Shown: in pieces, positions 857 to 3,292 of the stretch
How positions within the stretch are numbered: position 1 is the stretch's first letter
How the letters are laid out: the number at the start of each line of letters is the position of its first letter
Source of the DNA: Blastocatellia bacterium
GTDB taxonomy: Bacteria > Acidobacteriota > Blastocatellia > Chloracidobacteriales > JADJPF01
Assembly: GCA_025057015.1 (NCBI GenBank)
Contig: JANWYG010000017.1
Coordinates: forward strand, 1-64,000
Reading direction: 5' to 3'
Length of the DNA stretch: 64,000 nucleotides
Notes under the pieces: model-generated
What the model saw: only the letters and a program-made list of their open reading frames with translations
Database searches by the model: none
Told to the model about the DNA's origin: nothing
Made by a program: the position numbers and the translations under genes

Positions 857-3292
857 ATGAGCGAACAAATGAAACCCTCTACATCAGACACTATATTGCA
901 ACCCGCCGCTGACAGCGGCAGTAAGCTGCTCAGAGACCTATCAGGGCTCACTATAGACGGAAAGTACTTACTAGAAAAGAGAATAGGCAGAGGAGGTATG
1001 GGAGCAGTCTATGTTGCCAAGCACACAAAATTTCAAAAGAAGCTCGCCATCAAAGTCCTCTCGCCCGACCTCGTCGAAGATGAAAATTCCTATAAACGCT
1101 TCGTAAATGAAGCAAATACTACAGCTAGCCTCAAACACCCTAACATAGTCTCTGTGTCAGACTTCGGACAAACCGAAGAGGGTATAGTCTACTTAGTAAT
1201 GGAGTATGTTGAAGGTGTTTCACTGCGGGACATCATCCATAGGGAAGGAAAACTGACCCTGGAACGAACGCTCGAATTCTGCAGACAACTGTGTGACGCC
1301 ATCTCGCTTGCCCATAAACGCGGTGTGATTCATCGCGATCTCAAGCCCGACAACGTGATGATAGAAGTGATAAATAACCGCGAGATAGTGCGCGTGCTCG
1401 ACTTCGGAATAGCAAAGCTAAAAGATGCAAACCAAAACATGACAAAGACCGGTAATGTTCTAGGCACGCCACACTACATGTCACCTGAACAGTGCAGCGG
1501 CGGAGAACTAGATCACAGATCTGACATCTATGCCCTCGGCGTAATCATATACGAGATGCTCTCAGGCCAGGTGCCGTTCGACGGCCCTACACCAGTAGCA
1601 ATAGTCGTACAACACGTCACTAAAAACCCACCCCTTCTACACGAAGTAAATAAAGCAATACCAGAACCGGTCTCCAGAGTAGTAATGAGGGCACTCGAAA
1701 AGAAGCCCGAAAATAGACAACAAAGTGCCGACGACATAGTTAAGGAGCTAGAAGCTGCAATAGAAATAGCTTCCGATCCAACGCTAGCCTCGGCAAATGC
1801 CGCTAGCTTCGCTACCCCGACAAGCGAAAAAACAGAAGTCAAGTGGAGAGCTATCTTCAAAGGTCCCATCGAAAATACCAAAGAAGGACAGCTTCGAGTC
1901 CTCGAAGGCTTACAAAAAAGACTTAACTTCTCTTATACAAAAGCAAAAGAACTGCTCGATAGTGCCCCGGCACTAGTCAAGCAGTCCAGCTCACAAAAAG
2001 AAGTAGAAGAGCTAGCAGAGAAACTACGTGCCATAGGTGCTGACATCAAGGTAGAACGTGTCGTAGATCCTTTGGAAAAAGAGACGAAGCTAATTCCAGT
2101 ATCAGAGAAAGAAAAAGATACTGTAGCTGTCAAAGCTGAAACTATTCAGGATCCTCTGATAGTTCAAGGTGCTGACATGTACGAAATCCAAAGGGAAATT
2201 CAAGCAAAAGCTACGGCAGTAATGAAGAAAATCCAAAGCGATACTATCCAAACACAACCCGAACCTCCTGTTAAGACAGAGTCTGCACAAGAAACAGTAG
2301 CTATAGCTAAAGAAACCACTGCACTTGATACGTCGCGGCTTTGGTTCGTACAGGCAGGCCTGCAGCTCTACGAAAACTTAGAAGAAGATGAAGTGATCTC
2401 GCGCATACGCAGCGGGATGTTTCGTGCAAATCACCAGGCTAGAAAAGGTAATGGCCCCTGGAGAGAGCTATCTTCTATACCGAAGTTTCGAGAGATCTTC
2501 GAGCAACGCAACCCCCACATGTTCGCCCTACAACAAGAAGAGGCTGAGCAACAGACTTCCGCAATACAAACTTTTTGGGCCAAGATGGCTGCTCTAGTCG
2601 CCAGCATGATGACTCTCACCTTCTTAATCAGCCTAATAATGCAATATTCCCAACGCAAACTGCTAGTAAATGAGCTAGAAGTTATACTTTCAAGTCCTAA
2701 AATGAAGGTGTATGACTTACCTCAGCGTGTAAGAAATGCTCTAAGAAACAGAGACCTCACTGTACCAAACGAAAACATACATATTATCGCTAATCCCATA
2801 GAGAAAACCGTAACCGTTAGGATAGATTACAAACTGGCCGTGATGTTCTTCATTCCGATGAATTATCAAGCAGTAGCCGAGCGTAGCGGAGTAGATATGA
2901 CTCTAGATGACCTTGCCCGTGCCTCAGAAGGTACAATCGAAGTAGTCGGTATCTCCCCCGAAGAAGTTGCTAGATATAAGAAAAAACAACGTGAAATGCA
3001 AGCAGCAGCACGGCTTGCCTCCTACAGAGGAGAGCCAGAAACCGTCAGAGAATACGAAGCTATGCAGCAACTACTCAAAGAGTGTGAAGACGGATTGAGA
3101 GAATTTGACGTCGTCGCTGTAGATGAGGAAGGACGCAAGGTCGAAACCAAAACTGTAAAGATCCGCGATCGAGAGTATACCCGTGAAGAGCTACAGGCCT
3201 ACGTAAGCAACCTACGTACTAAGGTGGAAGATCTTGAACGCATACTCAAAGAGCAGCGCCAAAAGAAAATAGAAGAGGAAGCAAATAAGTAA
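857..3292 (+). CDS. Membrane Ser/Thr kinase with L7/L12-CTD-like and GYF_2-like domains
   Basis: A Hanks-type protein kinase of about 811 residues. The kinase domain (about 36-300) has the glycine loop GRGGMG (44-49), catalytic HRDLKPDN (159-166), DFG (182-184) and the activation segment end TPHYMSPEQ, so it should be active. After it, residues about 345-402 resemble the ribosomal protein L7/L12 C-terminal domain (AKELLDSAPALVK, then EELAEKLRAIGADIKVE). Residues about 495-550 (WFVQAGLQLYENL to PWRELSSIP) resemble a GYF_2 domain. One membrane segment lies at about 576-596, followed by a charged, coiled-coil-rich C-terminus that is probably periplasmic. I prefer ATG 857; the frame extends to a TTG at 836 without a better ribosome site. 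The kinase call is firm; the two accessory-domain calls are from pattern alone. Confidence 0.93.
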   Translation: MSEQMKPSTSDTILQPAADSGSKLLRDLSGLTIDGKYLLEKRIGRGGMGAVYVAKHTKFQKKLAIKVLSPDLVEDENSYKRFVNEANTTASLKHPNIVSVSDFGQTEEGIVYLVMEYVEGVSLRDIIHREGKLTLERTLEFCRQLCDAISLAHKRGVIHRDLKPDNVMIEVINNREIVRVLDFGIAKLKDANQNMTKTGNVLGTPHYMSPEQCSGGELDHRSDIYALGVIIYEMLSGQVPFDGPTPVAIVVQHVTKNPPLLHEVNKAIPEPVSRVVMRALEKKPENRQQSADDIVKELEAAIEIASDPTLASANAASFATPTSEKTEVKWRAIFKGPIENTKEGQLRVLEGLQKRLNFSYTKAKELLDSAPALVKQSSSQKEVEELAEKLRAIGADIKVERVVDPLEKETKLIPVSEKEKDTVAVKAETIQDPLIVQGADMYEIQREIQAKATAVMKKIQSDTIQTQPEPPVKTESAQETVAIAKETTALDTSRLWFVQAGLQLYENLEEDEVISRIRSGMFRANHQARKGNGPWRELSSIPKFREIFEQRNPHMFALQQEEAEQQTSAIQTFWAKMAALVASMMTLTFLISLIMQYSQRKLLVNELEVILSSPKMKVYDLPQRVRNALRNRDLTVPNENIHIIANPIEKTVTVRIDYKLAVMFFIPMNYQAVAERSGVDMTLDDLARASEGTIEVVGISPEEVARYKKKQREMQAAARLASYRGEPETVREYEAMQQLLKECEDGLREFDVVAVDEEGRKVETKTVKIRDREYTREELQAYVSNLRTKVEDLERILKEQRQKKIEEEANK

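Follow-up and report, generated by a model that had tools for sequence, protein, structure and literature searches.

The locus and its product

The window, by which is meant the whole 64,000-nucleotide stretch that was analysed, is the start of a 420-kb contig in a Blastocatellia genome of 3.33 Mb and 23 contigs. Near its left end lies a gene for a Ser/Thr kinase of 811 amino acids (857-3292, with ATG at 857 and the stop codon at 3290-3292; this and all features that follow are on the plus strand). The mechanically called open reading frame begins at a TTG at 836; ATG 857 is preferred as the start and is backed by relatives with matching MSKK...TSD beginnings. The kinase domain (971-1738; PF00069 at 184.6 bits) is of the Hanks, PknB-like type: P-loop, catalytic lysine, HRD and DFG are all present, in the motifs GRGGMG, AIK, HRDLKPDN and DFG, and PknB supplies its best solved relatives (6.5e-67). 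After it come, in order, a module resembling the C-terminal domain of ribosomal protein bL12 (residues 329-403, 1841-2065), a linker modelled at low confidence, a GYF-like segment (residues 493-548, 2333-2500), a single predicted membrane-spanning segment (residues 577-595, 2585-2641; Kyte-Doolittle maximum 2.17 over 19 residues) and an extracytoplasmic C-terminal region ending in a long helix (2642-3289). Helices and strands are predicted for that last region (model pTM 0.34), which has no Pfam match under E 0.05; pLDDT falls below 50 in the linkers, residues 83-124 and 133-170 of the C-terminal fragment model. The protein shares with PknB-type receptor kinases its kinase domain, its one membrane span and its extracytoplasmic region, but the L12-like and GYF-like domains of its linker and a C-terminal region without a family are its own. 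The preliminary description of this DNA, made from the letters alone, had called the domain string unusual, and the rarity of the combination is borne out.

That description also named a GYF_2-like domain, of which the name and the fold have fared differently. PF14237 (GYF_2) has no match in the genome at E up to 10 and none to the segment, so that the assignment by profile is rejected. What remains is a tentative GYF-like predicted fold with low sequence support: Foldseek pairs the segment, modelled inside the larger C-terminal fragment, with 7ruq (prob 1.00 but E 0.17) and VIA-align superposes 8z9y_E on it (Z 6.3, model residues 172-227).

The genome is rich in kinases of this class, with 58 kinase-domain matches at E ≤1e-10 (two open frames are hit twice) in 3.3 Mb; among these matches the module is seen only in the kinase at 857-3292. 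In two related genomes (G002 and G003, loci L037 and L038) the kinase gene lies, as judged by eye, beside recA, an HU-like/PilZ-like gene and a PP2C-like gene. A PP2C-type phosphatase near the kinase there is what an ordinary signalling locus might contain; no PP2C-type gene is seen in the first 8 kb of the window. A search of phage records returned 57 matches, none reaching 80% query coverage, and the five listed among them cover the kinase part.

The bL12-like module

The genome has its own separate bL12 gene (C3:113435). The preliminary description had placed an L7/L12 C-terminal-like module in the kinase at 1889-2065, and had named a structure prediction and a search for other such kinases as the ways of checking it. 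The module is there, and its quoted motifs lie where they were said to, in frame and in one open reading frame. The end at 2065 holds; the start does not, since the domain runs from 1841 and its first strand (1841-1888) had been missed. AlphaFold2, run with four sequences, predicts the module at pLDDT 91.7 and pTM 0.73, with strands at 5-13, 48-53 and 71-78 and helices at 18-32, 36-44 and 56-68, that is, the beta-alpha-alpha-beta-alpha-beta order of L12. Foldseek with this model puts L12 and ClpS chains at its top ranks, and VIA-align superposes it on 1ctf over 68/68 residues (Z 10.2, rmsd 2.0). When all of the C-terminal part is modelled (490 residues), the module in it superposes nearly as well (Z 9.9).

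Sequence comparison points the same way. PF00542 matches the whole protein at 26.7 bits, above its cut-off of 25.9, the excised segment at 32.8 bits and the same place in a whole-genome search at 32.6 bits; of the kinase relatives, one (K4) falls below the cut-off (16.2 bits) and another (K2) has no match among the matches listed. When the 87-residue segment alone is the phmmer query, bL12 chains of solved ribosomes come first (8rdw_D at 6e-5, 1ctf at 1e-3). Aligned by hhalign with 14 bL12 C-terminal domains, which were chosen by a text pattern requiring some factor-binding residues, four kinase modules score 40.6, a value that none of 200 column shuffles attains (mean 10.3, maximum 18.1). Leaving out the window's row lowers the score to 30.2, still above a shuffle maximum of 16.1 (0/200 as high). 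The similarity is one of family and not "almost position by position", as had been put: 15 of 55 positions are identical to E. coli L7/L12 64-118, and only 8 to 11 in the other four kinases. The kinase modules have drifted from bL12, the window kinase being the most bL12-like of the five. Like the bL12 C-terminal domain, the module has the fold, the order of elements and a profile score above the cut-off; it differs in being about four residues longer (model residues 5-76 against the 68 of 1ctf) and in its setting, the N-terminal dimer/stalk domain of bL12 being absent and a kinase domain preceding the module instead. A genuine L7/L12-type domain thus sits in a membrane Ser/Thr kinase.

Distribution and relatives

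Among the 14 genomes of the order, five kinases carry the module, and all come from three of the four genomes in the window's family. The family genome without a module kinase is G001 (83% complete); the family also includes 'Blastocatellia bacterium nzgw73' and 'Acidobacteria bacterium NC_groundwater_1571'. A scan of named genomes with the C-terminal alignment of the kinase yielded at least three loci, and one with the whole kinase no match. The module also heads a second family of membrane proteins, whose open frames measure 485 to 641 residues and which occurs in 6 of the 14 genomes. Across the 162 genomes of the class, scores run from 95.3 to 120 bits for these 11 modules and drop to 32.6 at the next match; outside the order, none of the genomes searched has anything at module level. 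The representative of the second family in the window's genome (L036:1476-2930, minus strand, G000:C9) starts with the module, followed by a proline-rich stretch and by membrane segments close to DUF4190; five further genomes of the order have relatives of it.

Second-family modules score 38.0 against bL12 by hhalign (0/200 shuffles as high). Kinase and second-family modules align with each other at 72.4, closer than either to bL12 (40.6 and 38.0). In a tree of 29 rows the modules of the kinases group together (98/89), as do those of the second family (100/97), in two clades that are not joined, with bL12 and other fusions standing apart; the alignment is short and the branches are long. Within the kinases, 23 of 80 module columns are invariant among four sequences. 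Conservation is higher in the module than in the linkers, and most of the invariant columns downstream of the kinase domain fall inside the module.

A wider view of the phylum was obtained with two profiles. A six-row profile matches in 235 of 297 sampled genomes at E ≤1e-3; its 30 loci comprise the window kinase and two second-family proteins, 24 distinct bL12 proteins and three copies with identical sequence (L048, L060 and L061), which were collapsed. PF00542 matches in 366 of 396 genomes, 24 of which have at least two matches. Of these additional sites eight were read, and none of the eight is a kinase. Two are bL12 itself. An AAA+ protein and a membrane protein each carry two copies; the rest are an Hsp70-like protein, a possible lipoprotein and two proteins with the helix-pair part only. 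Plasmid records gave no match to the second-family module and 16 to the kinase module, of which 15 are annotated rplL and one carries no annotation.

Several of these fusions deserve a description of their own. An AAA+ ATPase (L122:899-2512, minus strand, G128:C58) has two L12-type domains in front, the second of which keeps the factor-binding residues. One protein (L126:1747-3456, G077:C54) joins a zinc ribbon, an L12-type domain and an Hsp70-like ATPase. A ricin-B-type lectin, probably secreted (L071:860-1672, G004:C80), has at its end a bL12 C-terminal domain that is close to canonical (98.7 bits). At L127:1655-2986 and L128:1007-1465 (minus strand) the L12 domain is represented by its helix pair alone, ahead of a membrane segment; such partial matches occur in frames of 429-473 residues in nine genomes (G031 included) and of 91-153 residues in six.

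The factor-binding site

The site by which bL12 binds IF2, EF-Tu, EF-G and RF3 is described as a conserved patch of positive charge on helices 4 and 5 (PMC6753160). Over positions 64-89 the window kinase has the same net charge as E. coli, +2, and the four relatives have +1, +1, 0 and 0. The residues followed here, which we take to be those that bind the factors, are K65, I69, K70, R73, G79, L80 and K84 (E. coli numbering). In an unfiltered set of 41 distinct full-length bL12 proteins, G79, L80 and K84 are present in 41/41 and K65, I69, K70 and R73 in 40/41, the last row being gapped at those four positions. At the seven places the window kinase reads Q, L, E, Q, S, Y and K, and so keeps one residue, K84; the other four kinases keep none, K84 being lost too. 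From the residue table and the net charge, the specific bL12 site is gone and yet a charged helix pair remains, in the window kinase only. The L12 domain of the G128 AAA+ protein keeps 7/7, so that retention within a fusion is possible, and that of the G004 lectin keeps 6/7, with Q at position 70.

What the module may do

Fold, family resemblance, location, conservation in relatives and loss of most factor-binding residues are computed properties of the module; what it does must be argued from them. Chance similarity of a helical, charged sequence might be suspected of a domain so short, whose whole-protein score barely clears the cut-off (26.7 against 25.9) and whose profile also weakly matches an apparent succinyl-CoA synthetase (identified by eye) in G001. 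The shuffles that never reach the observed score, the L12 fold of the predicted and superposed structure, the profile match, and the gap across the class between the weakest module (95.3 bits) and the next match (32.6 bits) leave that explanation with a negligible probability, and we hold it refuted. The fold itself admits another identity, a ClpS-like domain recognising N-terminal degrons: bL12 and ClpS have a common fold, ClpS 9b1p superposing on the module at the same Z of 10.2 as 1ctf, so that structure alone does not discriminate between them. Sequence does, and a ClpS origin is rejected on it. The kinase modules score 15.3 against the ClpS proteins of the order (15.5 with a ten-row alignment), within the range of 100 shuffles of the ten-row alignment (maximum 17.6) and to be compared with 40.6 for bL12, and the NDD and H motifs of those ClpS proteins are absent from the module. 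ClpS is found in 12 of the 14 genomes of the order. The window's genome has no ClpS match, a point in favour of a ClpS-like module; against it, G002 and G003 hold both ClpS and module kinases. The ClpS adaptor is accordingly of the same fold class as the module, with no sequence relation to it, and a degron-recognising module is very improbable.

With the bL12 affinity granted, the module might be supposed to bind translational GTPases as bL12 does, the kinase sensing or phosphorylating translation factors, as the preliminary description had proposed. The shared fold, K84 and the unchanged net charge of the window kinase speak for such docking; it is not supported by the residues themselves, K65, K70, R73 and G79 having become Q, E, Q and S in the window kinase and all seven positions being lost in the four others, against their retention in 40 or 41 of 41 bL12 proteins. 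Canonical factor docking is made less likely by this loss, to the point that we consider it improbable; the unchanged net charge leaves room for another acidic partner. With the catching residues mostly gone, the module has the look of a docking domain that was borrowed, which falls short of a proven link between the kinase and protein synthesis. It might also dock nothing, and serve as a passive spacer or as a stabilising element in the juxtamembrane linker. The low-confidence linkers that come after it would suit such a role, but the module is conserved above those linkers (23 of 80 columns invariant) and is common to an otherwise different protein, and we regard the spacer role as unlikely.

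The explanation that we favour, and think probably correct, is that an L7/L12-type fold in the cytoplasmic linker of a receptor kinase has been repurposed as a candidate docking domain. A copy of the L7/L12 C-terminal fold would have been built in between the kinase domain and the membrane-proximal GYF-like domain, where it would dock a protein and so bring a substrate or a scaffold to the kinase. Docking would use a surface other than the GTPase site of bL12, perhaps one that includes the GLQ and AEKLR positions, whose conservation is specific to the kinases, and the partner need not be a translation factor. The presence of this module at the head of a second membrane protein family fits a reusable adaptor, and the related L12-type domains of AAA+, Hsp70-like, lectin and membrane proteins in the phylum are counted on the same side; the five kinase sequences on which this explanation is based come from one family. 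A more elaborate proposal, which we offer as a long shot, is that an L12-derived, lineage-specific docking domain couples the receptor kinase and the second, proline-rich membrane protein family in one signalling system, the two being joined by the module or by the GYF-like domain on the proline-rich stretch, possibly around a non-translational GTPase.

Ribosomal stalk domains off the ribosome

Reuse of the L12/ClpS domain away from the ribosome is known. Published descriptions place L12/ClpS-domain insertions in vWA (vWA-propeller) proteins (PMC7159879), the domain in the cytoplasmic part of single-span HTH membrane proteins (PMC12419801) and in one orthocaspase (PMC8283722), and bL12 domains in larger unrelated phage proteins, in which the elongation-factor residues are said to be kept (PMC6375957). 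The vWA and HTH membrane proteins, as described there, reuse the same domain with other partners in the chain, a Ser/Thr kinase taking their place here; the phage proteins embed the L12 domain in like manner, but the module kinases lose the factor residues. Our literature searches, which may have missed papers printing only L7/L12, turned up no description of an L12 domain in a Ser/Thr kinase, and a word search of the main text of a 2005 survey of prokaryotic kinase architectures (PMC1262709) found no mention of L12, ribosomal or GYF. Such reuse having been described already for other proteins, the specialist should be only moderately surprised.

This kinase clearly illustrates how a ribosomal stalk domain is reused in a signalling protein, with its original binding site worn away. 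A PF00542 match outside bL12 must therefore not be taken as a link to translation. For the Acidobacteriota receptor kinase itself, the module is a defined segment with which to seek the partner.
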